From: Hyphomicrobiales bacterium
Lineage (GTDB): Bacteria; Pseudomonadota; Alphaproteobacteria; Rhizobiales; JACESI01
Reading direction: 5' to 3'
Length of the DNA stretch: 64,000 nt
NCBI GenBank assembly: GCA_039973685.1
Contig: JBDWKL010000011.1
Span: forward strand, 1-64,000
Positions 4,293 through 18,206 of this stretch are shown here, one piece after another. How positions within the stretch are numbered: position 1 is the stretch's first letter; each line of letters starts with the position of its first letter. The notes under the pieces are model-generated. The model saw only the letters and a list, made by a program, of their open reading frames with translations, ran no database searches and had not been told where the DNA came from. Position numbers and translations under genes: made by a program.

Positions 4293-6740
4293 TTATTTGT
4301 TGCTACTTACATTCAAGTTCAATGCCAGTTTTGCGATTGCAATTCGCAACGATTTTAGCTCTTGGTTGCTAATTCCAGTAATTAATTCCCAATCACCACG
4401 ATGCTTTTTGCGAATTGAGGTCGCAAGTTTGATCGCTTCTGGGCTTGTTTGCATTGAGAGCCAAAGAAGATGGCGCTGATCTGCCAATCCATTTGCCATA
4501 TCGAGGAAGAACTCATGGACATCTGGTTGTTTGGCACAAAGGGTTGGCATTGGCGGGAACATAGATACATCGCCTTCACGCCCATCTGTTGGATCAAAAG
4601 GATGACCGAGTGGTAACCGTGCATGCCATTGCAAATATCTATCCGCACCCGTTGTCCAAAGCCAAAGACCTGCTGTTAGGCGTGGTTGGCCTGTATTGTA
4701 TAGCCAAGGCTTAATATTGCGTTTTTTCAACCACTTAATGTCTTTTTTATCGATACCAAAGCCTTGGTTGATAATCGCAACGTCGAAGAAATGGAGATAC
4801 TCATAATCCTTCGGGTTGTTTAAGTGTCCTGCTAATTTTGCCTCAGGAGCAGCCTTTTTAACGGCGGCGACCCATTGAGGCATGTCGCGTGCTGATTGAG
4901 ATGCTGCGTTGCCTGGTTCGTCCGCCATGCTCCAAACGGGAGCGGGCAGGCCGTTCTCTTTTAAGGCTTTTAAAGCGCGCGCCATTGCTTGTGCGCCTTT
5001 TTCGATACCGAGCTGATGATACAGGCCAAACGATGCATTATAGGCAAGCCAAGGCGAACTCGTTGCATTTTGCAAAGCTTGTTGCGTATCGCGAATAAAA
5101 GCGGGCTTACCATTGATGTGAGGGATGTGCAGAGAGGGAGAATTTCCTCGAATGCCAAACTTTGAGAGGAAGGCAAGGTCGCAAGCATTTTGTTCTGCGT
5201 TATCTTTTGCCAAATCGCGATGCCAGCTTAAATGTGGCGCATGCAACATATAAAAACCTGCATCAGAGGCTACTTTTGGTAGCGTAATTGGCGGAACGAT
5301 CAAAGAAAGCGGTAGCTCTTGAACACGCGTGCCAGATTTTACGGTCAAAACGCCTTTATGTGTTCCTACTGGAAGCATGTCGGTTGGTTGCAACCAAAAT
5401 GAATAACGACGCGGTGTATTGGCGTAAAGCGGGAAGGTTTCAACATCCGATCTGAGTTGGGTCGAACGCGGGGTGAAAAGATTGCCACCTGTTCTAATCC
5501 GTTCCAATCGGCGTTGACCGGCCCAAACCATTGGATCGATCATCCCTTCAAGACTGTTATTTTCCCAAGAAATTTTGAATGTTGGTGCTGAAGCTTCTTG
5601 CGCGCTACTAACTGACAAGGAAAGGCTTGTGCCTGTTTCGTTTGTCATTGCGAGTTCGAGCGGCTTGAAACGAACAATTTTGTTCAAGTTGATGTCGCGG
5701 TCCGCAGTTTGTAGCTCACCAATTGTCGGATCAACTTTCCACTTGTTGTTGAACCAAGTTTTACGGCGTTGCTCGATAGCGGCTAGTGCTTTTGAATCTG
5801 GTTTTTCAATCAATGCAGCAGAAATATAAAGGGCGTTTCTTCCTGCTCCTGCAAATTCGATATCAATTTTATTGTCTTTGCCAACATCAACGTCGAAGCT
5901 TAAGCGTCCTCCGCGGTGTTTGCCGTACATGTTCCAAATATCGTTGTCTTTTCCCACTTCACGATCGCGTCCAGACATATAAATTGTTTGGTTCCATTCG
6001 CGCGGCGTGTATGTCTCGTGACGAACGATCTTGCCATTCACTTTAATGCGTCGATTGGTGAAGCCGCGAAGCTCTTGCCATGCACTGGTCTCTTCTGTCC
6101 AAATTGTTAGGCGTTGTTTGCCACTTGGTGCGGGAAGCGTGATCCGCTCTACACCGTTGACCCCACTTGAAAGCAGAGGATCGGAGCCAGGCCGGAGTAT
6201 TTCGAGCAGGTTTTTGCCGCCGAGCATGGAGCTTGAGGCTGAAACTCTTTTAAAGCCTTCAAAAACCGGACTATCGCTTTTGCCAAAACTGAAACCGACT
6301 GCATTGTCAGGCAATGTGATTGCTTCTTCGATGGCGTAATGTTCAATAACAGTACGGTCCGTGTCTGTTGGCTCAAAAAGAATGATGTTATGGATGCTAT
6401 TCACATCTATCGGTCGTTTACCCGTGGTCTTCAGACCCGTGAGTGGAAGTCGTATTGAAAATGGGCCAGGCGGAAGTGTGCGGCCCATATTGTAGCGGCT
6501 TGAATAATTGCGAGACTTTGCATCATCAATGCGTAAAGCGATTGTGACGTTTTCATCACCTAATACGTTACCACGGATCACGATCACGCCTTCACGTGAG
6601 GCTTCCGTTTTCAGAACGGAACCCGCACGAATTGGTAGACTGCCGCTTCTGAATTTATGGAATACTTCGCCAGCAAACACTGTCGTTGCAGACAGTGTCA
6701 CAAGAGCGGCAGCTATGATTGATGATGCTTGTTTTCTCAT
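4293..6740 (-). CDS. Secreted glycoside-hydrolase-like protein (DUF4091-type C-terminus)
   Basis: 815 residues with a cleavable signal peptide (cleavage near VFA|GEV, residue 23). The first ~480 residues appear to be beta-sandwich modules. Residues ~490–760 look like a TIM-barrel hydrolase: a WSMADEPG motif at 603–610, where E608 is a plausible acid residue, and a GLWLWTTGADRYLQWH block near 691–706. The second block resembles the C-terminal region of DUF4091-type proteins (xWxWxTGADxYxQWHxR). The probable site of action is the periplasm or cell surface, trimming or degrading the polysaccharide made by this locus. The substrate is unknown. Its start overlaps the glycosyltransferase stop by 4 nt (ATGA), so it is translationally coupled to EPS synthesis. 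Confidence 0.75.
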   Translation of the reverse strand: MRKQASSIIAAALVTLSATTVFAGEVFHKFRSGSLPIRAGSVLKTEASREGVIVIRGNVLGDENVTIALRIDDAKSRNYSSRYNMGRTLPPGPFSIRLPLTGLKTTGKRPIDVNSIHNIILFEPTDTDRTVIEHYAIEEAITLPDNAVGFSFGKSDSPVFEGFKRVSASSSMLGGKNLLEILRPGSDPLLSSGVNGVERITLPAPSGKQRLTIWTEETSAWQELRGFTNRRIKVNGKIVRHETYTPREWNQTIYMSGRDREVGKDNDIWNMYGKHRGGRLSFDVDVGKDNKIDIEFAGAGRNALYISAALIEKPDSKALAAIEQRRKTWFNNKWKVDPTIGELQTADRDINLNKIVRFKPLELAMTNETGTSLSLSVSSAQEASAPTFKISWENNSLEGMIDPMVWAGQRRLERIRTGGNLFTPRSTQLRSDVETFPLYANTPRRYSFWLQPTDMLPVGTHKGVLTVKSGTRVQELPLSLIVPPITLPKVASDAGFYMLHAPHLSWHRDLAKDNAEQNACDLAFLSKFGIRGNSPSLHIPHINGKPAFIRDTQQALQNATSSPWLAYNASFGLYHQLGIEKGAQAMARALKALKENGLPAPVWSMADEPGNAASQSARDMPQWVAAVKKAAPEAKLAGHLNNPKDYEYLHFFDVAIINQGFGIDKKDIKWLKKRNIKPWLYNTGQPRLTAGLWLWTTGADRYLQWHARLPLGHPFDPTDGREGDVSMFPPMPTLCAKQPDVHEFFLDMANGLADQRHLLWLSMQTSPEAIKLATSIRKKHRGDWELITGISNQELKSLRIAIAKLALNLNVSSNK

Positions 6741-7873: not shown

Positions 7874-8628
7874 TATTTTTCTTCCTTTTGGTCTGCCAAT
7901 TCGGCTTTTGTTTCGTTTGGAAATAGCGGGCGAATAACGCGGGCAGGGACACCACCAGCCAATACGTTCGCAGGCAGGTCTTTGGTGACGACTGAGTTTG
8001 TTGCAACCACAGTACCGCGACCGATCGTGACGCCTGCTGTTACGGCAACACCCATGCCAAGCCATGCGCCTTCTTCGATGATGATGTCGCCGACTTGATC
8101 GTCGGTATCTGCATCACCACGCGCTCTTGCGACAGGATCAAGTGGATGACCTGGGAAGCCAGATAAAAGATTGCGCCCGCCCATGCGCACATCGTCTTCA
8201 AGGACAATTTTGCTGCCCACAGCAATATGCGTTTGCCAGCCAATGCCGACATTGTTGCCAATGATAAGTTCTGGTTGCTTGTCGCCATTGACGCGCGCCA
8301 ATAGTGAGCATTGTGTTGAAAGGCGGCAACGCTCACCCATGCTGAGTTTAAGCGGGCCAGCCATGTAAGGCATGCCTTTGCCAAACAGGTGCAGCTCTTT
8401 CGCGGGCTTTGTCATTTGAGACAAAAATAGCGGCTTGAACCATAGGGCCATGACGACGGTATTGATGCCGTCGCGGACGCCGCAATGTAGCATATAGAGA
8501 GGTTTGTGAATTGCTGGGATACTTGGCATGGATGCACGACGCACAGCCCAACCAGTTTTATAAATCAATTTGGCAAGCGGCGTGTCGCCAGCTTTCACCC
8601 ATTGTCTGAATGAGAGAGCTAAACTCAT
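7873..8628 (-). CDS. Hexapeptide-repeat (LbH) O-acetyltransferase
   Basis: 251 residues. The C-terminal half carries left-handed beta-helix hexapeptide repeats (VGDIIIEEGAWLGMGVAV, VTIGRGTVVATNSVVTKDLP) and the closing NVLAGGVPARVIRP block typical of WcaF/maltose-acetyltransferase-like enzymes that use acetyl-CoA. It probably adds acetyl groups to a sugar of the EPS repeat unit. The N-terminal ~90 residues are less typical and may position the acceptor. It overlaps the polymerase gene by 4 nt upstream and the glycosyltransferase by 1 nt downstream, consistent with coupled translation. Confidence 0.87.
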   Translation of the reverse strand: MSLALSFRQWVKAGDTPLAKLIYKTGWAVRRASMPSIPAIHKPLYMLHCGVRDGINTVVMALWFKPLFLSQMTKPAKELHLFGKGMPYMAGPLKLSMGERCRLSTQCSLLARVNGDKQPELIIGNNVGIGWQTHIAVGSKIVLEDDVRMGGRNLLSGFPGHPLDPVARARGDADTDDQVGDIIIEEGAWLGMGVAVTAGVTIGRGTVVATNSVVTKDLPANVLAGGVPARVIRPLFPNETKAELADQKEEK

Positions 8629-10214
8629 TTCTGTCTCCTAGCTTTCGAGCCAATATCGAGGTCTGGATCCCAACGAACCCGTTCCAAGTGTTGGTTTGAT
8701 TTTTCCCACAAATTCTTCGCGCGTGAGCTGATGCTAACTTCTGCTGGCGGTGGTCTGTCGTAGTAGCCGTCGTCTGCTTTTTCTTGTGTTTCAATAATGA
8801 AGGTGCGGCTGTATTTCGACAGGGCAACGCAAAGGGCTAACAAGAGGTAGAGGGACCATGTATGTGCCTGCGTCAAAAACGTGCCGGATACGCAGAAACC
8901 TGCGAGACCTGCAAGGACGGCCAATGTGGCTGTACGGATACTCTCGTCAGCACGACGATAGGTGTAAAGCTTGTACATTTTGAGCAAGCGCCACGTCATG
9001 AGGAAGATCATGCAAAGGAGGAAGAAGAACGCGATAAATCCGTTTTCTGAAAGAGCACCAAACCAAGTTGAGTGCACCACGTGTGGCTTGCCGTCGCCGT
9101 TAACGCGAAGATAAACGAAATAGTTGGAATAAAAGTTCTGCCAACCAACACCAAAGATTGGGTTGTTGACGGCCATATTCCAAGCTGTGTCCCATGTATC
9201 AAGACGGGCTTGTGCAGAGGCATCAACGCCTTCTTCCGCAGCACCACCAGATTTCCGGTTGTTAATGCCCATCATTGCGAAAAGACCGATGGCTGCGATG
9301 CCGCCAATGCCGCCTAGAATAACTTTGGATTTGATGTAACGTTCGCCGATAACGCCCAAAACGGCCAAAAGCCCAAGTAAGCCACCGCGGCTTTGTGTTG
9401 CAACAATCGCCCAGATCATTGTCAAAGAAGCGAACCCACCAAAGAATTTTAGCAAATAAGATTTTGGCACCATGATGAGCGAAAGGGCGAAGGACAGCGG
9501 GAATAAGAGACGCAGAGACAAGTCATTTGGGTCACCCAGTGGCGAGCGCAAGTGACGTGCAATGGTAACCCGTGAGCCTTCTACAAGGCCGATACCCATG
9601 AGTTTGTTATAGACGGCAACAACGCCAACAATAACACCAGCAACAACGAAGAACTTGATCGCAGCCATGAATTGCTTTGGTTCACGGATGCTCCATGCAA
9701 TTGCGAAAGTCATGATGATGATTTTCACATAGGTATCGAGGAAGAATTGCTTAGATGCACCAAAGTTTGTGGCAAAGAACATGCCGAGCAATGACCAGCC
9801 TGCAAAGAGTGCGAATGGTGTTAGCTCATGTTCCCAATAAACTCTGATTTTGCGGCTGAGGAATAGATTGTAACAAAGCACGCCAAGCACTGCGAGAGAG
9901 AGTAAAAGAGGAACGCGCAACGGTCTGATGGGTGGGTAGACTTCGTGAAAACGGAAGAATGCAAAGCCCACAAACAACAGACACGTAAAGAAAGCAAACC
10001 GGAAAATGAGGATGCCAGCGAAAGGCAAGAATGCAATGACGACCGTTAGAAATGGCTTTACGAATGCTGGCACGCCCAGTGGAATAAACCAAACAACAGC
10101 TGCCAATAAACTGCAGGCAACTGCCAGCAACATATGACGATGTTTCCGCGTGTTTAAATCACGCGGTTCAGCAAGTTTGCTACCAAATGGGATCTGGTCG
10201 TATAGCGTGCTCAT
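8625..10214 (-). CDS. Wzy-like polysaccharide polymerase / O-antigen ligase family protein
   Basis: 529-residue polytopic inner-membrane protein with about 10–12 hydrophobic segments. It has the periplasmic loop and the family signature region around LGDPNDLSLRLLFPLSFAL, TQSRGGLLGLLAVLG and HSTWFGALSENGFIAFF, typical of the Wzy_C (O-antigen ligase) superfamily. In this locus, which also holds a flippase and a copolymerase, it is most simply the Wzy-type polymerase joining repeat units in the periplasm. A ligase role cannot be excluded because the two share the fold. A hydrophilic C-terminal tail of ~70 residues faces the cytoplasm. It overlaps the flippase stop by 4 nt. Confidence 0.88.
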   Translation of the reverse strand: MSTLYDQIPFGSKLAEPRDLNTRKHRHMLLAVACSLLAAVVWFIPLGVPAFVKPFLTVVIAFLPFAGILIFRFAFFTCLLFVGFAFFRFHEVYPPIRPLRVPLLLSLAVLGVLCYNLFLSRKIRVYWEHELTPFALFAGWSLLGMFFATNFGASKQFFLDTYVKIIIMTFAIAWSIREPKQFMAAIKFFVVAGVIVGVVAVYNKLMGIGLVEGSRVTIARHLRSPLGDPNDLSLRLLFPLSFALSLIMVPKSYLLKFFGGFASLTMIWAIVATQSRGGLLGLLAVLGVIGERYIKSKVILGGIGGIAAIGLFAMMGINNRKSGGAAEEGVDASAQARLDTWDTAWNMAVNNPIFGVGWQNFYSNYFVYLRVNGDGKPHVVHSTWFGALSENGFIAFFFLLCMIFLMTWRLLKMYKLYTYRRADESIRTATLAVLAGLAGFCVSGTFLTQAHTWSLYLLLALCVALSKYSRTFIIETQEKADDGYYDRPPPAEVSISSRAKNLWEKSNQHLERVRWDPDLDIGSKARRQK

Positions 10215-11674
10215 TCTGCAGCTTCTCCAGACGGTTTTTCAGCGGCATCAAATTGTTTTGGTGCATATCCTGGACGCGGTAAGTTTACGCGGATAAGGCC
10301 GAGCATTACTGCTGTGATGGCTAATAAAACGACGCCAGTGATTGCCCAACCAATAACAGCAATGCTTGAAAGGACACTTGGCGAGAACCAAATAAATGTC
10401 GTTGTCATGATTGCCAATATCCCGGTACGAAGGAACGGATATGGGATTGGTGCTGAGTGATGACCGATGGTGACGAACAAAACCAAACGCAGTGCTTGTG
10501 CTGCAATTGTCGCTGCGATCGCGCCGACGATGCCATAGTCTGGAACGAACAACCAGTAGCCAGTTAGAGCAACAGCTGCACATGTGCCGTTGATCAAGAG
10601 CACCAAGAAAGCGTGCTTCTTGCGGTAAACGCCAACATTCAAAAGCGTGTTGCTTTCATGCAGAACGGCGATGCCGATGAGCCAAGGCAGATAAAGCGTT
10701 GCGTGCATGTATTCCGCTGGCATTGTCCAGTGAATGAAAAGAGGGCCGATTAAGCTGATGATCGTTGCGCTGACTAAAAGGACCGTGAAGCCCATGCCGA
10801 TAGTTTCAGCAGAGCGTTGTAGGCCGTTTGGTTCTTCTAAAACGCGGAAGCGCTGCGGGTTCCACCACAATAAAAATGGTTGCATCAAAAGAGGCGCTGC
10901 CAATGCAAGCTTGGTAGCCACTGCATAATGGGCAAGGTCATGGGCTGGAACGTGGCCAACAAGGAACCAACGATCAAGGGCGCCAAGCACGAACATTGCT
11001 AAAGCGCCACCAAGCAAAGGCAAACCATAAACACACGTCCGCTTGAAAGCTGCCACTTTGAATGTAACGCCGGTTTCTTTGATCATAATGGTCAAAACCA
11101 CGATCGAAATGAGAATATCTACGGCGGCATTTGTGTAAAGGATTGCTTCGATCCCATATCCTGCCCATGCAGCACCGATGGTTGTGACTGCTTGAAGAAC
11201 GCCGCGCGTTCCTGTGTAGAGCAAAAACATCAAGGGTTGGTCTTTGAGGCGCACCCACGCAAGCGGCAAAGCGATCAAGCCAGAAAGGGTCGCTGCAAAG
11301 AAGCCTGCACGAATGGCACCTTCTTCGAACACGATTGGCAATGAGTTCAAGAATGCAGGCACCAAAAACTGAACCGCGATACCCAGCGCTAATGCAAGTA
11401 GGAGAGCTGTACCGATAATTTCTGAAGCGACAGTATTTCTTTGACCCGTGTCTTTCTCAAGCGAGGTGAAACGGATCAATGTGTCGGCGAGGCCCATCGC
11501 AAATACGAGACCTAAAAACTCAATAAAGCTTGCAGCCACGTCGAGGCGACTAAACTCGGAAGGTGCGATAAAATTCGCAAGCAAAGGTATAGAGATGATG
11601 CTGAAGCCTTTTGTCACGACAATGCTCGCAACGTATGGCCAACCAGCTGGCAGTTTATTGAGTAGTCTAAGCAT
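10211..11674 (-). CDS. Wzx-like oligosaccharide flippase (MOP/PST family)
   Basis: 487 residues from the chosen ATG at 11674 (MLRLLNKLPAGWPYVAS), which overlaps the upstream glycosyltransferase stop by 8 nt. A longer in-frame start at 11773 would lie deep inside that gene and adds a polar, non-conserved stretch. About 12–14 membrane segments and the N-terminal pattern (VTKGFSIISIPLLANFIAPSEF) match polysaccharide transporters of the MOP superfamily. It probably flips the undecaprenyl-linked repeat unit to the periplasm for the polymerase encoded next. Confidence 0.88.
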   Translation of the reverse strand: MLRLLNKLPAGWPYVASIVVTKGFSIISIPLLANFIAPSEFSRLDVAASFIEFLGLVFAMGLADTLIRFTSLEKDTGQRNTVASEIIGTALLLALALGIAVQFLVPAFLNSLPIVFEEGAIRAGFFAATLSGLIALPLAWVRLKDQPLMFLLYTGTRGVLQAVTTIGAAWAGYGIEAILYTNAAVDILISIVVLTIMIKETGVTFKVAAFKRTCVYGLPLLGGALAMFVLGALDRWFLVGHVPAHDLAHYAVATKLALAAPLLMQPFLLWWNPQRFRVLEEPNGLQRSAETIGMGFTVLLVSATIISLIGPLFIHWTMPAEYMHATLYLPWLIGIAVLHESNTLLNVGVYRKKHAFLVLLINGTCAAVALTGYWLFVPDYGIVGAIAATIAAQALRLVLFVTIGHHSAPIPYPFLRTGILAIMTTTFIWFSPSVLSSIAVIGWAITGVVLLAITAVMLGLIRVNLPRPGYAPKQFDAAEKPSGEAAE

Positions 11675-12923
11675 TCTTGTATGCCCTTCTGGGTACATCG
11701 TCTTTCTGGACGACGTGATCTTCGTCATTCTTGACGTAATCTTCCTCAGCATGAACCGTGCCAAGTGTCTCAATCAGGCCAGAAAGAGTTCTGGCTTGGC
11801 TTTCAATAGTGAAATGTTGTTGGATGCGATTGCGTGCCCGCTTTCCAAGTTCAATACGTTCTATTTCATTAAGGACAGATAATTGCTTCATCGCTTCGGA
11901 GAGCTGACGAATATTCCCAGGTTCAACAAGAAGCCCAGTGCCTTCGGAGATTGTGTCTTTTATGCCCATGAAACGAGTTGAGAGCACTGGAAGGCCCATT
12001 GCCATTGCTTCTTTCACAACCAGGGGACCCGTATCTTTCTGGCCATCTGCTGCTTGCTTGAATGGAAGGACAGCGCCTTGATAGAACGGGGCTTCTCGTG
12101 CAATCCAATCAGGTGATTTTGCGCCCAAAAAGCGAATTTTCGTGTCAAGAAGACCATAATCTTTCGCACGTTTTTTCAGCGGGTGGGCTAGCGGTCCATC
12201 ACCAACAATATCGATGTCTGCACAGTGATCGCCAAGTCGGTAAGCCGCTTCAATAAGATCTTCGACGCCTTTTGAAGCTGATAGTCGGCCCAAATATAAC
12301 AACCGGCCGTTGGTTTTCAGCGTTTCTGCTGGACGGAATTGTTCTGTGCTGGTGCCACAAGGAACCATTGCCAACTGCGATGCTGGGCCAATCATGGCAA
12401 ATTCTTCGACCATGTCGTTGCACACGCCGATTGAAAGATCAGCTTTTTGAAGTTTAAGTTCTAAATCTTCACGGTCGCGATTAACGTCAGTTCCGTGACT
12501 TGTGAATGAGACAGTGGCACCCATCCATCTAGCCGCGACAATGGCGTGGCTAGCAGCACCACCTGCAAAATGAGCATGGAGGTGATCGCAGCCATGCTGA
12601 CGGGCAATTGCTACAATCTTCAGTGCGTTGCCCAACAAAGAATAACGGGGCAAAGACTGTTGGTTCAAAAGGTATGACATGGACCGCACAGCCCCAATGC
12701 CAGGACGTTTGAACTCATCAACGGCGCGTTGACTTGGAACGTTTTCCAAAAATGTTGAGTGGACAGCCGTCAAAAGGTCTTGCGGATTGGCAGGCCCAAT
12801 TGTTCGTTTCAACACGATCGGAACGATTTTGTGCCCACGCTCTTGCATAGCTCTCAATTCATTGCCGACGAACGTCTGCGATAAAACTGGGAATTGGCCC
12901 AAAATATAACCGATTGTCTTCAT
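11667..12923 (-). CDS. Glycosyltransferase family 4 (WcaL/AmsK-like), first gene of EPS operon
   Basis: 418 residues. It starts MKTIGYILGQFPVLSQTFVGNELRAM with the F-P-x-x-S-x-T-F-V-x-x-E-L motif of WcaL/AmsK-type GT4 enzymes. Other landmarks are HLHAHFAGGAASHA, the acceptor segment SFTSHGTDV, RLLYLGRLSASKGVEDLI and the donor-site block PLVVKEAMAMGLPVLST. It should add a sugar to the growing EPS unit. It is the promoter-proximal gene of the minus-strand operon; a strong sigma-54-type element lies at 12986–13002, leaving an estimated leader of about 50 nt. Confidence 0.9.
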   Translation of the reverse strand: MKTIGYILGQFPVLSQTFVGNELRAMQERGHKIVPIVLKRTIGPANPQDLLTAVHSTFLENVPSQRAVDEFKRPGIGAVRSMSYLLNQQSLPRYSLLGNALKIVAIARQHGCDHLHAHFAGGAASHAIVAARWMGATVSFTSHGTDVNRDREDLELKLQKADLSIGVCNDMVEEFAMIGPASQLAMVPCGTSTEQFRPAETLKTNGRLLYLGRLSASKGVEDLIEAAYRLGDHCADIDIVGDGPLAHPLKKRAKDYGLLDTKIRFLGAKSPDWIAREAPFYQGAVLPFKQAADGQKDTGPLVVKEAMAMGLPVLSTRFMGIKDTISEGTGLLVEPGNIRQLSEAMKQLSVLNEIERIELGKRARNRIQQHFTIESQARTLSGLIETLGTVHAEEDYVKNDEDHVVQKDDVPRRAYKNA

Positions 12924-12985: not shown

Positions 12986-13002
12986 AGCAAAGTTGATGCC
13001 AA
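12986..13002 (-). promoter_or_regulatory. Sigma-54 (-24/-12) promoter of the EPS operon
   Basis: Read on the minus strand, the site is TTGGCATCAACTTTGCT. It matches the sigma-54 consensus YTGGCACGN4TTGCW at the invariant GG and GC with the required 10-bp gap; the visible mismatches are T for C in -24 and C for the preferred G just after it. Transcription would start near 12975, about 50 nt before the ATG at 12923. The locus also encodes a sigma-54 activator at its other end. Confidence 0.7.
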
Positions 13003-13058: not shown

Positions 13059-14006
13059 ATGACAAAACCGATTTGTAGTGTGGTAATTCCAACGCGCGAT
13101 TGCGTGGACTATTTGAAACAGTCCATTCCAACGATTTATCTGCAGAAACTTGATAATGTAGAAATTATTATCGTTGATGACGGATCGACAGATGGATCGC
13201 ATGAGTATTTAGCTGAATGCCAGAAGAACGATGAAAACTTCGTTGTATTACAAACAGATGGCATTGGTCCCGGTCGTGCGCGCAACCACGCAATTGAGCA
13301 GGCAAACTCTGATTTAATTGCATTTTTGGATGCAGATGATCTGTGGACTGAAGGAAAACTTGCGCGTCAATTGGCCTTCCATGATGCCCATCCAAATGCG
13401 AGTTTATCGTTTACTGACTACGCGCATTTTCGTCCTGGTGAACCTTTATCTGGATCATCGTTCGATTATTGGGGCCGTAATTTTTTAAAGCCTGACCAAA
13501 CGGGCTATGAAGCAATTGATCATCCTGAAGCTGTTTTGTTGCAACATAATATTGTTGGGACTGCAACTGTGGTTGCAAAACGCGAATCTTTGCAAAATGC
13601 AAACGGTTTTGCGACGGATTTGCAATCTGCAACCGATTGGGACATGTGGATGAAGCTTGCAGGCATGGGTGAGGTTGGCGTTTCGCCTGAAATCGGTATG
13701 CATTATCTCATGCGCCCTGGCTCAATTACGCAAAATCGTCAAAATCGAATAGATGCAATCGACTTCATTATAGACCGTTATAGAGCGCGTACAGAGCCTG
13801 AAATGATCAAAGCTGTTCGTCTTGCAGAAGCAAATTTAGCCGTCGCACGAGCGGAATATGATTATGAGCGCGGACGCGGTTGGGACAGTCTTCGACATTA
13901 TTTTGAAGCGATTTCTAAGAACCCAAGCAAGCGTTCTATTTGGGCCGCTGGTTACTCAGTTGCGTGTGGTGTTCAAAACACCCTTGGTATCAAAAAGGCT
14001 GCTTAA
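13059..14006 (+). CDS. Glycosyltransferase family 2
   Basis: 315 residues with the GT-A fold of family 2: ICSVVIPTRDCVDYL at the N-terminus, the nucleotide-binding IIIVDDGSTDGS, the GPGRARNHAIEQANSDLIAF segment, the metal-binding DxD region FLDADDLW and an ATDWDMWMKLA block (the ED-like catalytic region). It is soluble and lacks the membrane segments of processive synthases, so it adds single sugars to an EPS precursor. It runs divergently from the main operon and 24 bp ahead of the phosphatase/anti-sigma hybrid gene, with which it is probably co-transcribed. Confidence 0.9.
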   Translation: MTKPICSVVIPTRDCVDYLKQSIPTIYLQKLDNVEIIIVDDGSTDGSHEYLAECQKNDENFVVLQTDGIGPGRARNHAIEQANSDLIAFLDADDLWTEGKLARQLAFHDAHPNASLSFTDYAHFRPGEPLSGSSFDYWGRNFLKPDQTGYEAIDHPEAVLLQHNIVGTATVVAKRESLQNANGFATDLQSATDWDMWMKLAGMGEVGVSPEIGMHYLMRPGSITQNRQNRIDAIDFIIDRYRARTEPEMIKAVRLAEANLAVARAEYDYERGRGWDSLRHYFEAISKNPSKRSIWAAGYSVACGVQNTLGIKKAA

Positions 14007-14030: not shown

Positions 14031-15554
14031 ATGCAATTATTTAATGAAAAATGTCCTGCAACACTAAAGGACATTTCATTGGTGAGACGCTCTATGCGTC
14101 GCGCGCTTAGTGAAATTAGAATGTCTGATGAGTTGGTTGGTGACCTCCAGCTGATTGTCTCTGAGATTGCTGTAAACACAATTGAGCATGCAACCACACC
14201 ACCGACGGAACTTGAATTTCGAGTGCGCATTCGTGGCGCAGAGATCGGCATCGAGATAATCGATAATGGGTCGTCTTTTGAGAATTTTGACGATAAATTT
14301 GGTGTTTTTGCACCTGAATTACAGGAAGTTAAAGGGCTGAATACCGCACTGGTTGCTTCTGGCCGCGGGATTGAGCTAGTTCGCGATTTTGCCGATGATA
14401 TTGTTTATCAACCCGGTCCGCCGAACCATTTTATCGCATGGCGTCGCCTGTCGAAACGACAACCAACAGTCTTGATTGTTGAAGATGAGCAGGTTCTCGC
14501 AGAGATGTATGCGCTTGGTCTTTATCCGACTTATCGCACGATTATCGTCGACACCATTGAAGAAGCCTTGGCGACCCTTGAACATACGACGATCGATATT
14601 GTTGTTGCAGATTATCATCTGACCGATGGCACAGGGCGCATTTTAGCAGAGACAATGGAGACAGATCCCCATCGTCTGCCTGTGCCTGTGATTATGATTA
14701 CAGGCGACAACAATGTTACGCTTAAGCAAGAGATGCTTGAGATCGGTGTTGAGGCAGCTTTGCAAAAACCTGTTTCAAAACAAGATCTTGAAGGGCATAT
14801 TCGTTTAGCGTTGCGGCGAGCAGAACGCCGTCGTACTTCGCATTTTCGCCATTTCGGTGCAGCGGCTGCAAAACTTTTGACGTTGAAAATTCCTGAAAAA
14901 GTTGGCGGATTTGCACTTGGCCACCATACCAATGTTGCTGACCTTGGCAGTGGTGATGCGATGCTGCACCTAACCAGCAGTGACCGTGACCGTGTGGTTT
15001 TGATGGATGTTATGGGGCATGGTTTGGGTGCTCATTCGGCGGCCATCGCTTTAGCGGCGATTGCCCGCGCTATTCATTCGCAACGCCGCGATGTTGCACC
15101 AAACTTGTTCTTGCGTGAACTCTCAAACGCTTTGTTTGCCGATTTGACTTTGGGGCAGCTGATTTCAACGATGCTGGTGCTTGATCTAAAGGAAAATGGT
15201 GAGGTGGAAGTTTCTTCCGCCGGTCATCCAAACCCTGTTGTGGTTCGAAAAGATGGTATCGAGCAGATTGATGTGACAGGGCCACTGCTAGGGTTCGCCC
15301 CCAATGTGGATTATGATTGTCGGAAGTTTTCCCTAAAAGAAGGGGAGCGATTGGTGTCATTTACAGATGGGCTTGATCCAATGAGCTTGTCAGCAGGTGA
15401 AGAACTGCCAGAGTGGATGTCGAATGCATTGATGGAAAGCCTACCAAGCCCCTTTGAAAGAGGCATGGAAGAATTACTCACTAAAGTAAGGGCTGCAGTC
15501 GGGCCTGAACCCGACGATGATTGGACGATCTTAGCGCTTGAGAAAAGCGCTTAG
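14031..15554 (+). CDS. Hybrid regulator: HATPase (RsbW/SpoIIAB-like) – receiver – PP2C (SpoIIE) phosphatase
   Basis: 507 residues with three domains. Residues ~1–140 form an anti-sigma-type HATPase (N-box SEIAVNTIEHA with E45/N49, then IEIIDNG and GRGIELV). Residues ~145–262 form a receiver with acidic pocket E151/D152, phospho-acceptor D194, T224 and K246. Residues ~290–507 form a SpoIIE-type PP2C phosphatase with metal ligands D309, D326 (DVMGHG), D446 (FTDGLD) and D496/D497. All key residues are present, so each domain looks active. Such proteins act in partner switching, phosphorylating or dephosphorylating a STAS anti-anti-sigma protein. No STAS gene is in the window. It lies among EPS glycosyltransferases and probably couples a histidine-kinase signal to EPS output. 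Confidence 0.9.
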   Translation: MQLFNEKCPATLKDISLVRRSMRRALSEIRMSDELVGDLQLIVSEIAVNTIEHATTPPTELEFRVRIRGAEIGIEIIDNGSSFENFDDKFGVFAPELQEVKGLNTALVASGRGIELVRDFADDIVYQPGPPNHFIAWRRLSKRQPTVLIVEDEQVLAEMYALGLYPTYRTIIVDTIEEALATLEHTTIDIVVADYHLTDGTGRILAETMETDPHRLPVPVIMITGDNNVTLKQEMLEIGVEAALQKPVSKQDLEGHIRLALRRAERRRTSHFRHFGAAAAKLLTLKIPEKVGGFALGHHTNVADLGSGDAMLHLTSSDRDRVVLMDVMGHGLGAHSAAIALAAIARAIHSQRRDVAPNLFLRELSNALFADLTLGQLISTMLVLDLKENGEVEVSSAGHPNPVVVRKDGIEQIDVTGPLLGFAPNVDYDCRKFSLKEGERLVSFTDGLDPMSLSAGEELPEWMSNALMESLPSPFERGMEELLTKVRAAVGPEPDDDWTILALEKSA

Positions 15555-15589: not shown

Positions 15590-16639
15590 CTAAGCGGCTA
15601 TTTTTTCTTTAAAGCCTGATCGCTGATAAATATCGATCATGGTTTTAAGGCGTGCTTGAACAGAGAAATTCTCAGCAATATGAGCACGACAATTGTCAAA
15701 CATGACTTGGCGTTTTTCTGCCGTCATTTCTGCCCATTCCATCATGTAGTCTGCTGCTTCATCAAGCTGATTAGGCTCAAACAACCACCCATTTACACCG
15801 TGCGTTATAACATCTGGCAATGCGCCAAGTTTTGGCGCGACCACTGGAATGCCGTGCGACATGGCTTCAAGTACTGCAAGCGGCAGTCCCTCGGCTCGCG
15901 ATGGCAAAACTAAGAGGTCAAGTGTTGGCCATATATTGGTCATGTCTATTTTAAGACCATGTAGATTGATATCGGCTTCGGATCGTTGTTTGATTTCTTC
16001 AAACATTGGTCCATCACCATAGGCGTGCCACTCAACATTTTGGAAAGCAGGCGCAACACGTAGCATTTCCGATAGTGCGCAAAAATTATCAGGCGCCTTT
16101 TCATGGCTGAACCGACCGACAAAGCCTGCCCGAAGTCGATTGCGGGTGGGGTCGGTTGCTTTTTCTGGCATATCAATGAAGTTATGAACCAGCTCTGTTG
16201 ATTTTGGCAAACGGTCGCGGATTGGTTCGCTGACAGCAATTGCTGGAGCGAGGAACGAACTCATTTCATCCAGCGTTTGATACACTGAAACTGGGAATTG
16301 GCCGCGCTCACCAGAATGAAAAGTTGAAACAACCGGCGTCTTTGTCAACCGACAAGTCGCGCGCCCCAAAATACCTGCTTTGTAGCCATGGGTATGAACA
16401 AGCGAAGGGTTGGACATTTTGAGGTTCTTTACAAGATCACCAATCGTGCCTTTTAAAACTCTGAATGGAATCTGTGCAGCTTTCAGCTGATCAAACCAAG
16501 GGTTGTGTCCATAACTTGCAAACAGGATCACTTCACAATCGATATCGAGACGACGAAGACCGCGCGCCAACATTTCAATGTGTCGCTCAATGCCACCAAT
16601 CGCACTGGAATCGATGAGTTGCCAAATCGGGCCAGCCAT
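15590..16639 (-). CDS. Glycosyltransferase family 4
   Basis: 349 residues. The ATG at 16639 (MAGPIWQLIDSSAIGGIERH) is preferred over the in-frame ATG at 16690 because GAGGTGG lies just upstream of it and the GGIERHIEMLARGL motif then sits at the usual N-terminal position. GT-B landmarks are HTHGYKAGILGR, RAGFVGRFSHEKAPDNF and the donor-site block LVLPSRAEGLPLAVLEAMSHGIPVVA. It is convergent with the hybrid regulator gene (35 bp apart) and divergent from the next glycosyltransferase. It is probably an EPS-unit sugar transferase of unknown specificity. Confidence 0.9.
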   Translation of the reverse strand: MAGPIWQLIDSSAIGGIERHIEMLARGLRRLDIDCEVILFASYGHNPWFDQLKAAQIPFRVLKGTIGDLVKNLKMSNPSLVHTHGYKAGILGRATCRLTKTPVVSTFHSGERGQFPVSVYQTLDEMSSFLAPAIAVSEPIRDRLPKSTELVHNFIDMPEKATDPTRNRLRAGFVGRFSHEKAPDNFCALSEMLRVAPAFQNVEWHAYGDGPMFEEIKQRSEADINLHGLKIDMTNIWPTLDLLVLPSRAEGLPLAVLEAMSHGIPVVAPKLGALPDVITHGVNGWLFEPNQLDEAADYMMEWAEMTAEKRQVMFDNCRAHIAENFSVQARLKTMIDIYQRSGFKEKIAA

Positions 16640-16937
16640 AACCACCTCATAATACTGAATGCATTTCCCTCGTATCCCAGAGATCACCACCGAAGGGCTA
16701 ACAAATCCTAACGATGGCCGCAGGGCCGCATAAGAAACAGCAAATTGAGCGTTCTATCGATTTATATGGTGAATGAATGGTTTCAATGTTCAGGATTAGA
16801 AGATTGGAGAGAGGAGTAAATACCCACTTAACCTATTGTTTACCATAGAAAAAATTTCTCTTGTAAATGTCGGGTGCCCATGAAGTATTAACCTACGTAG
16901 ATTATTCTGCTGTTTAGGATTCAACAGGTTTTTCATT

Positions 16938-18206
16938 ATGTTCCAGCCGAATAAGTCGCCCGGTTCGCTCCCCGAGTTAGAACGCCCTTTGGTGATCATC
17001 CATTGTGTTCGATCAATTGTTGGTGGCATTTTTAAGCATATTTCAGACTTGGTAAAACATCAGTCCGATGAAGGTCATCATGTTGGTTTGATCTACGATT
17101 CATCGACAGTTGGCGCTTTTGAAGAAGAACGTTTGGAAGAATTGAAGCCCTACATGACATTAGGGGCGATAAAGCTTCCTATGGGTCGCAATGTTTCGTT
17201 GAAAGATATAACCGTTACGAAAACGGTTCATGGCCTTTTGAAAACAATCAACGTTGATGTGCTTCACTGCCATGGTGCAAAAGGCGGCGTCTACGGGCGT
17301 ATTGCTGCAAGTTTCATAAACCGAGATCGTAAACGAGCTGGCGAACCTAAATTGGTGACGATCTATTCGCCTCATGGTGGCAGCCTTCATTATTCCCAAC
17401 GATCTTTGACGGGGCAAATCTACTTCGGTGTTGAGCGCTTAATGGAGCGCTTCACGAATGAATTTATTTTTGTTGCAGGCTATGAGGTGGAAACCTACAG
17501 CCGCAAAATTGGTAAGCTGCGCCAGCCGTGGTCAATCGCTTATAATGGCCTTGCCGCTGATGAATTCGCTGTGGTTAAGCCATCAAAGCGTGCTGTGGAT
17601 TTTGTCTACGCAGGACACATGCGAGATTTGAAAGGTGCAGATCTATTTATTGATGCAATCGAGATTGCTAATGCGCGTTCTCAGCAACCTGTTCATGCTC
17701 TCATGATTGGTGAGGGTGAAGATTTGCCTCGCTATAAAGAAGACGTGAAACGGCGTGAATTAACGGATCGCATCCAGTTTTTGCCACCAATGCCAATTCG
17801 TGATGTGTTTAAACGTACGCACAATTTGGTGGTGCCGTCACGGGCAGAAGCGCTACCTTATATTGTTGTTGAGGCATTGGGCGCGCGCGTGCCGACCCTT
17901 GCAACCAGTGTTGGCGGCATTCCTGAAATTTATGGTTCTTATGGCCATTATCTTTTGCCGCCCGGTGATGCCAACCTTTTTGCGACTGCTATGCTGGATC
18001 GCCTATCGCGGCCAGAAAAGGCCAGTGACCTGGCAGGTAGCCTTCGCCAAGTTGTGAAGCAGAAATTCACGGTTGAAGGCATGTGTAAGAAGGTCGACAA
18101 AGTGTATTTGCGAAACCTTGCTAAAGTCCATCTTCCTGAAGTTGACCCTAGTGGCTTTTTCAATGAGGACGAGGATATTCAATCTGCTGTTTACGCAAAT
18201 TCGTAA
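16938..18206 (+). CDS. Glycosyltransferase family 4
   Basis: 422 residues. The N-terminal domain has the acceptor-side motif RSIVGGIFKHISDLV and VDVLHCHGAKGGVYGR; the C-terminal donor domain has VDFVYAGHMRDLKGADLFID, an IGEGEDLPRYKEDV segment and LVVPSRAEALPYIVVEALG (the E-x7-E region). It is a GT-B retaining-type enzyme and the last EPS gene on this side. The 298-bp divergent spacer before it (16640–16937) is AT-rich and contains single copies of AAACAGC (16735–16741) and GCTGTTT (16909–16915), the same heptamers as the palindrome at 13011–13034. Confidence 0.9.
   Translation: MFQPNKSPGSLPELERPLVIIHCVRSIVGGIFKHISDLVKHQSDEGHHVGLIYDSSTVGAFEEERLEELKPYMTLGAIKLPMGRNVSLKDITVTKTVHGLLKTINVDVLHCHGAKGGVYGRIAASFINRDRKRAGEPKLVTIYSPHGGSLHYSQRSLTGQIYFGVERLMERFTNEFIFVAGYEVETYSRKIGKLRQPWSIAYNGLAADEFAVVKPSKRAVDFVYAGHMRDLKGADLFIDAIEIANARSQQPVHALMIGEGEDLPRYKEDVKRRELTDRIQFLPPMPIRDVFKRTHNLVVPSRAEALPYIVVEALGARVPTLATSVGGIPEIYGSYGHYLLPPGDANLFATAMLDRLSRPEKASDLAGSLRQVVKQKFTVEGMCKKVDKVYLRNLAKVHLPEVDPSGFFNEDEDIQSAVYANS

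Follow-up and report, generated by a model that had tools for sequence, protein, structure and literature searches.

The open reading frame at 14031–15554 very probably codes for a response regulator of the SypE type. Its substrate would be a STAS protein of the SypA type, whose phosphorylation it controls and whose gene belongs to the same EPS locus, ~20.6 kb upstream on an adjoining contig. The architecture, the STAS substrate and the EPS setting are already known from SypE and SypA; what is added here is a linkage rule for the two genes, a sequence patch specific to the STAS proteins of export operons and a layout of sigma-54-like sites. We judge the likeness to the Vibrio fischeri proteins from domain order, published residue numbers and a locus on a Plesiomonas plasmid.

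Domains and residues of the SypE-like protein

The frame opens with ATG and has exactly the coordinates given in the first-pass annotation. That it did not arise by chance is shown by two congeners, in which it is conserved from end to end (66% and 56% identity). Pfam profiles, all above their cut-offs, place within it an HATPase_c_2 domain (54.5 bits versus a cut-off of 27.4), a Response_reg domain (55.9 versus 30.2 bits) and a SpoIIE/PP2C domain (106.4 versus 25 bits) in that order, the last being the sole SpoIIE domain of the genome at E≤0.01. Positions refer to the window, by which we mean the whole 64-kb stretch of DNA analysed (C11:1–64000).

14031–15554, + strand: SypE-like multidomain response regulator, 507 aa (domain profiles, residues, congener conservation)
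14055–14417, + strand: N-terminal RsbW-like serine kinase domain, HATPase_c_2, residues 9–129 (Pfam)
14469–14801, + strand: receiver domain, residues 147–257, phospho-acceptor D194 (Pfam, alignment)
14778–14876, + strand: predicted single helix, residues 250–282, from the receiver into the phosphatase (AlphaFold2 model)
14982–15542, + strand: SpoIIE/PP2C serine phosphatase domain, residues 318–504 (Pfam)

The kinase domain has the N-box residues E45, N49 and H53, D78 and G80 of the G1 box and G111 and G113 of the G2 box; the receiver has D152, D194, T224 and K246; and the phosphatase has D309, D326-x-x-G329-H330, D446-G447 and D496/D497, whose aspartates (D309, D326, D446, D496 and D497) we take to be metal-binding. 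In an alignment of 13 SypE-like proteins, from 12 genomes and one Plesiomonas plasmid, E45, N49, H53, D78, G111 and G113 of the kinase, D152, D194 and K246 of the receiver and D309, D326, G329, H330, D446, G447 and D496 of the phosphatase were invariant (13/13 each). Position 224 was Thr or Ser throughout, D497 was kept in 11 of the 13 and replaced by Arg in G166 and G816, and G80 was Ala in the G001 protein. N49 and D194 are the counterparts of SypE N52 and D192 as judged by motif, not via an alignment to V. fischeri SypE. Profiles and alignment together bear out the first-pass annotation in its description of a kinase, a receiver and a SpoIIE-type phosphatase joined in one chain with key residues intact, and domain order, residues and the surrounding polysaccharide genes agree with its view of opposed kinase and phosphatase activities, separated by a receiver, as a partner-switch type of protein inside an EPS locus.

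An AlphaFold2 model of the protein (seven sequences; pLDDT 80.8, pTM 0.51) was good for each domain, with the ATP-lid region (about residues 91–113) poorly defined, and joined the receiver to the phosphatase through the helix at residues 250–282. Its best Foldseek match was P. aeruginosa RssB (PDB 3f7a, 3eq2; E 3e-21), extending over the receiver, the helical linker and the PP2C fold; RssB is not known to have an RsbW-like kinase domain. Receiver, linker and phosphatase domain are also the parts of RssB named in the excerpted eLife paper. A contig scan with the SypE-like protein returned one relative, a PP2C-only protein in Paenibacillus.

The order serine kinase–receiver–PP2C, within an EPS locus, is that of V. 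fischeri SypE (PMC3610818, in excerpt), whose substrate is the STAS protein SypA (excerpts of PMC3610818 and PMC10120452); neither this published order nor its STAS substrate had entered the first-pass annotation. The present protein differs in that it probably comes from another class, is ~25% identical to the gammaproteobacterial protein aligned (Plesiomonas) and has its STAS gene ~20.6 kb away in a separate, divergent operon. The same three kinds of domain, receiver, PP2C and RsbW-like kinase, also share one chain in P. aeruginosa HsbR and Shewanella CrsR, which act on STAS partners (HsbA and CrsA, respectively) and sigma factors (PMC6482189, in excerpt). By analogy with these proteins the HATPase domain would be an anti-sigma factor, and the STAS protein would release a sigma factor (e.g. 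RpoS or FliA) rather than act on polysaccharide output. We consider this reading unlikely, because HsbR and CrsR have the order receiver–PP2C–kinase, with sigma/anti-sigma factors and a diguanylate cyclase as targets (PMC6482189, in excerpt), whereas the order found here is that published for SypE, and because the linked STAS belongs to an export operon and has the K67-R68 motif of SypA, as described below. In Vogesella indigofera the response regulator TciR, too, has an RsbW-like domain; it consists of a receiver and this output domain and is contrasted in the excerpted source with SypE, which adds PP2C; according to the same excerpt, the TciR strain is without an RsbV homologue (PMC12826045).

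The probable STAS partner across a contig break

The first-pass annotation had reported that no STAS partner was nearby and had likened the protein to a self-contained switch. For the window itself the first of these statements holds: the 64 kb contain no STAS domain, and the eight STAS places that a genome search gave at E≤1 are all on contigs other than C11. The genome search for STAS that it had proposed was nonetheless productive. Four of the eight places exceed the Pfam cut-off, and a single one of these is in a short frame (130 aa, C17:29959–30210), the other three being in frames of 421–753 aa. This STAS gene stands 6.6 kb before the end of C17, and the window, for its part, starts at a contig end.

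C17:29932–30219: stand-alone STAS partner gene, 115-aa ORF (Pfam, locus linkage)
2–1204, + strand: SypG/LuxO-like sigma-54 response regulator, C-terminal two thirds, cut by the contig end; front part at C17:36265–36821

The end of C17 and the start of C11 each cut a gene, and the two parts belong to one sigma-54 response regulator: residues 2–203 of the G003 regulator match the C17 end and residues 203–613 the C11 start, and residues 28–206 and 206–587 of the G001 regulator do likewise. Both contig ends have six bases in common, within the Walker A coding sequence (read by eye), and the genes on either side of the join follow one another in matching order in G003 and, in inverted orientation, in G001. 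If C17 and C11 abut, the STAS and SypE-like genes are ~20.6 kb apart in the joined locus; on single contigs they are 20.5 kb apart in G003 and 13.6 kb apart in G001. We conclude that the probable STAS partner is in the SypE-like gene's own cluster, just beyond the start of the window across the contig break. An apparent internal stop in the G003 STAS was ruled out, being the gene's own stop. The fourth genome of the genus, G002, has neither a SypE-like gene nor a STAS at the limits used.

A one-chain partner switch that works without any STAS partner would agree with a 64-kb window that holds no STAS. We rejected it once the contig break was found, and regard it as exceedingly improbable: the window starts at a contig end, the STAS gene lies upstream across the break, and a linked STAS occurs in every genome found with the full-length protein. 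The earlier reading is thus right as to the parts of a partner switch in an EPS locus and wrong as to self-containment and the absence of a STAS nearby. As a caution, when a window begins at a contig end, an assembly break may explain why a partner seems "missing".

Spread and linkage of the SypE-like and STAS genes

Matches to the SypE-like protein were found in at least 3 of 61 relatives' genomes, all within the genus; in at least 6 of 385 genomes of a class sample (own genome counted; one, G192, receiver–PP2C only); in at least 3 of 398 of a phylum sample; in at least 2 of 9 genomes from the order of G223; and in at least 6 of 36 from the family of G166. Few candidates were scored per genome (three in the class and phylum surveys), so all of these counts are lower bounds. 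The full-length protein is present in 12 genomes of four families: G000, G001 and G003; G223 and G796; G166, G816, G438, G821, G823 and G813; and G336. We excluded G192 from the 12, where the receiver–PP2C protein without a kinase domain (G192:C2:828630–830125) is directly followed by a STAS gene.

A related SypA-like STAS is linked to the SypE-like gene in all 12 genomes, at 0.05–20.6 kb, and in the 11 other than the present one it is on the same contig in every case (0.05–20.5 kb). For comparison we used 25 genomes without a SypE-like match, hand-picked and not random (12 of the 30 of family f158 without a match, 10 of 57 order relatives, G002 and 2 of 7 from the order of G223). Such a STAS was found in one of the 25 at E≤1e-10, a limit chosen after the results were known, and in three at E≤1e-5; the single exception at the stricter limit, G822, has an export-protein stretch beside its STAS. 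Fisher's test for co-occurrence gave p = 7e-9, or 2e-7 without G000, G001 and G003, from which the STAS profile was built, values that overstate the case since related genomes are not independent.

In 8 of the 12 genomes (G000, G001, G003, G223, G796, G166, G816 and G336) the pair is part of an EPS locus whose other genes include relatives of those in the window, which confirms that the domain order is conserved in other EPS loci, as the first-pass annotation had proposed to check. A hybrid kinase and a sigma-54 regulator accompany the pair in seven of these eight; in the eighth, G796, the contig is 8.5 kb long. Genes for STAS, SLBB protein and ATPase follow in order on one strand in G000, G003, G223, G796, G166, G816 and G336. 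The remaining four genomes (G438, G821, G823 and G813) have no export operon around the pair within the 10.9–40 kb examined; there the STAS adjoins the SypE-like gene and the pair stands alone, so that a SypE–STAS pair is not always an EPS regulator. In the genus studied here the STAS is not adjacent to the SypE-like gene, unlike in family f158. One strand of the Plesiomonas plasmid carries, in sequence, a sugar transferase, a STAS, a small ORF, an SLBB protein, an ORF with a weak tyrosine-autokinase match and a SypE-like protein that shares only 25% identity with that of the window.

Genes of the EPS locus

The STAS strand of C17 encodes the STAS (115-aa ORF), a 221-aa ORF without a Pfam match, a 1397-aa SLBB export protein that matches TIGR03027 above its cut-off and a CpsD-like ATPase, an order (STAS, X, export protein, ATPase) like that of sypABCD and scvABCD. 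On the divergent strand are a GT4 glycosyltransferase, a GT2/sugar-transferase fusion, a SypF-like hybrid kinase (PAS-HisKA-HATPase-REC-Hpt) and the REC-sigma54-HTH_8 regulator, whose domains were called on the intact G003 orthologue and whose top NCBIfam match, ahead of other sigma-54 regulators, was LuxO at 554.7 bits, below the cut-off of 800. The locus thus resembles the syp locus in its hybrid kinase with Hpt, its LuxO/SypG-type sigma-54 response regulator and its STAS at the head of an export operon; for the export operon and the hybrid kinase this likeness presupposes the functions ascribed to sypA–D and sypF in V. fischeri.

The SLBB export protein (L018:5090–9283, − strand) has nine SLBB stretches by Pfam and is 1397 aa long, versus 711 aa in Plesiomonas. 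The CpsD-like ATPase (L018:4366–5061, − strand) lacks the Walker A lysine in all six aligned sequences (Val or Ala instead), so that it may be a pseudo-kinase or adaptor. Within the window the polysaccharide genes, among which there is also a hexapeptide transferase, place glycosyltransferases on both sides of the SypE-like gene.

1148–2854, − strand: polysaccharide chain-length protein, PCP/GNVR-type (profile matches below cut-off)
8625–10214, − strand: Wzy/O-antigen-ligase-type polymerase (profile search)
10211–11773, − strand: Wzx-type polysaccharide flippase (profile search)
11667–12923, − strand: family 4 glycosyltransferase that heads the leftward EPS operon (Pfam)
12986–13001, − strand: sigma-54-like −24/−12 site with 1 mismatch, 62 bases before gene 11667–12923; same place in G001 (1 mismatch) and G003 (0)
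13059–14006, + strand: family 2 glycosyltransferase, separated by 24 bases from the SypE-like gene downstream; G001 and G003 have the pair as well
15590–16690, − strand: family 4 glycosyltransferase beside the SypE-like gene, also in G001, G003, G223 and G796
16938–18206, + strand: family 4 glycosyltransferase of the EPS locus (Pfam, congener order)

The chain-length protein is 39% identical to a Plesiomonas GNVR-type protein. An 815-aa protein encoded at 4293–6740 (− strand), without a Pfam or NCBIfam match at the limits used, has relatives in the EPS loci of G003, G223, G816, G336 and Plesiomonas.

Loci of the scv (syp-like) type with a sigma-54 regulator have been described in 148 species of 28 genera, two of them alphaproteobacterial (Elstera and Terasakiella), a distribution traced in the excerpted text with ScvC, ScvL and ScvO, not with SypE or SypA; scvABCD form one operon, scvB is OmpA-like, and V. 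parahaemolyticus is given as lacking SypE and SypF (PMC8941931). A second excerpt likewise lists sypA as present and sypE as absent in V. parahaemolyticus and V. vulnificus (PMC4517449).

In G001 a 120-aa ORF (G001:C4:282335–282697; L029:7336–7698) stands between STAS and ATPase, where the congeners have an SLBB protein of 963–1397 aa; it resembles the N- and C-terminal ends only and, as judged by eye, results from an in-frame internal deletion. The G001 interval has no orthologue of the chain-length, Wzy-type and other EPS genes, and it still keeps the STAS, the SypE-like gene, the hybrid kinase and the regulator. This in-frame remnant and these missing orthologues, together with the lack of SypE-like and STAS genes in G002, could be read as an EPS locus decaying in the genus, with a regulator that no longer works. 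For the genome under study we find such a relic very unlikely, as neither its SLBB protein (1397 aa) nor its PCP, Wzx, Wzy or any of its regulators is truncated (in the case of the sigma-54 regulator, once the two contigs are joined) and the catalytic residues of the SypE-like protein are intact.

Sigma-54-like sites before the operons

The −24/−12 consensus of sigma-54 promoters is TGGCAC-N5-TTGCW. Measured against this consensus, the best site before the STAS operon had at most one mismatch in five of nine loci and at most two in eight, the exception being Plesiomonas, where the best had three (G796 was left out, its contig ending there); random 300-base windows reach at most one mismatch in 2.0% of cases and at most two in 10.3%. 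The divergent GT4 gene and the leftward glycosyltransferase operon (11667–12923) were each preceded by a site with at most one mismatch in all three congeners. No good site was found before the operon of the GT2 and SypE-like genes (best 3, 2 and 2 mismatches in the three congeners) or before four STAS genes outside EPS loci (3–4 mismatches). Over the whole window the pattern at up to two mismatches was not enriched (63 versus 53 expected), and it is informative only by its position before particular genes. From these positions, the STAS-export and EPS operons look sigma-54-dependent, which would fit the regulator of the locus, and the SypE-like protein looks independent of that regulator.

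A SypA motif specific to export-operon STAS proteins

The excerpts of two papers provide the marks by which we compared the STAS proteins. In V. fischeri SypA, exchanging K67 or R68 for Ala abolishes function and leaves the protein stable, and Y64A and Y66A cause defects but also lower the amount of protein (PMC4517449); Y64 stands where SpoIIAA and RsbV have glycine, and the phospho-serine is S56, a register that we took from the published S56A primer (PMC10120452). Y64, Y66, K67 and R68 are thus positions +8, +10, +11 and +12 from the phospho-serine. We set 10 export-operon STAS proteins (including those of Plesiomonas and G822) against eight others, five of them neighbours of SypE-like or PP2C genes in places with no export operon and three of them second copies, with the letters at +10 to +12 read by eye.

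The phospho-serine position directly follows an Asp in all 18 (D-S-[SA]-G) and is the first Ser of D-S-S-G in the C17 partner, which is the likeness expected of a cognate single-domain STAS of the SypE/SypA kind. Lys-Arg at +11/+12 was present in 10/10 export-operon STAS proteins and 0/8 others. Position +8 was Phe in 10/10 of the former and His (4), Arg (2), Tyr (1) or Ser (1) in the latter, and position +10 of the export-operon proteins was Tyr in nine and Phe in one. A second STAS with D-S-A-G, not D-S-S-G, lies ~5 kb from the export-operon STAS in G166 (C65), G816 (C1) and G822 (C9), and in G166 and G816 it falls between the SypE-like gene and the sigma-54 regulator. The idea that these second STAS proteins cannot be phosphorylated was dropped, because the published SypA primer identifies the phospho-serine with the first serine, which D-S-A-G keeps.

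The partner or target of SypA was still described as unknown in 2023, in the excerpt of PMC10120452. Only STAS proteins whose genes immediately precede those for an SLBB protein and a CpsD-like ATPase keep the K67-R68 patch, and relatives paired with SypE-like proteins elsewhere have lost it, which may point to a target within the export operon, and the absence of the Walker A lysine from the ATPase in 6/6 sequences would suit a docking platform more than a kinase. We tentatively put forward the possibility, which we favour less than the assignment of the SypE-type pair itself, that SypA-type proteins have their target among the products of the export operon that they head, where a phosphorylation-gated STAS would open or close polysaccharide export by direct contact. 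The comparison of export-operon with other STAS proteins singles out a functional patch and makes the neighbouring gene products candidate direct binders.

Proposed mechanism and implications

Beside the domains, residues, linkage, gene set, co-occurrence and sigma-54-like sites, which were observed directly, we infer the enzyme activities, the direction of the switch, the phosphotransfer partners and the STAS target. In V. fischeri, according to the excerpted sources, a sensor-kinase pathway switches SypE to phosphatase activity, after which SypA promotes biofilm formation at a step later than transcription (PMC3610818, PMC10120452). The parts of this scheme recur here in matching arrangement, which supports carrying it over. 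As long as the receiver bears no phosphate, the N-terminal kinase would, as in V. fischeri, phosphorylate the STAS on the first Ser of D-S-S-G, and the phosphorylated STAS would hold polysaccharide output off. The Hpt-ended hybrid kinase of the locus would pass phosphate to D194 of the receiver, which, through the long helix into the PP2C domain, would tip the balance to the phosphatase, and the dephosphorylated STAS would promote output. Coiled-coil linkers have been proposed to switch such phosphatases by dimerisation (PMC12143880, in excerpt), and the long receiver–PP2C helix and the RssB match would suit that proposal. A second probable target of this hybrid kinase is the SypG/LuxO-like sigma-54 regulator, which would turn on the STAS-export operon and the glycosyltransferase operons, so that polysaccharide output would need transcription and protein-level release together.

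SypE order, SypF-like kinase, SypG-like regulator and STAS–SLBB–ATPase operon together make up a syp-type regulatory module in what is probably another class. Searches of openly licensed PMC papers for SypE beyond Vibrio, and for partner switches in EPS loci of Alphaproteobacteria, listed no report of such an arrangement. With the linkage rule, the patch peculiar to export-operon STAS proteins and the sigma-54 layout, the question of the SypA target becomes easier to test. What had appeared to be an orphan becomes a complete SypF/SypG/SypE/SypA-like set, apparently outside Gammaproteobacteria. This suggests a design of greater age or mobility than the Vibrio system from which it is known.
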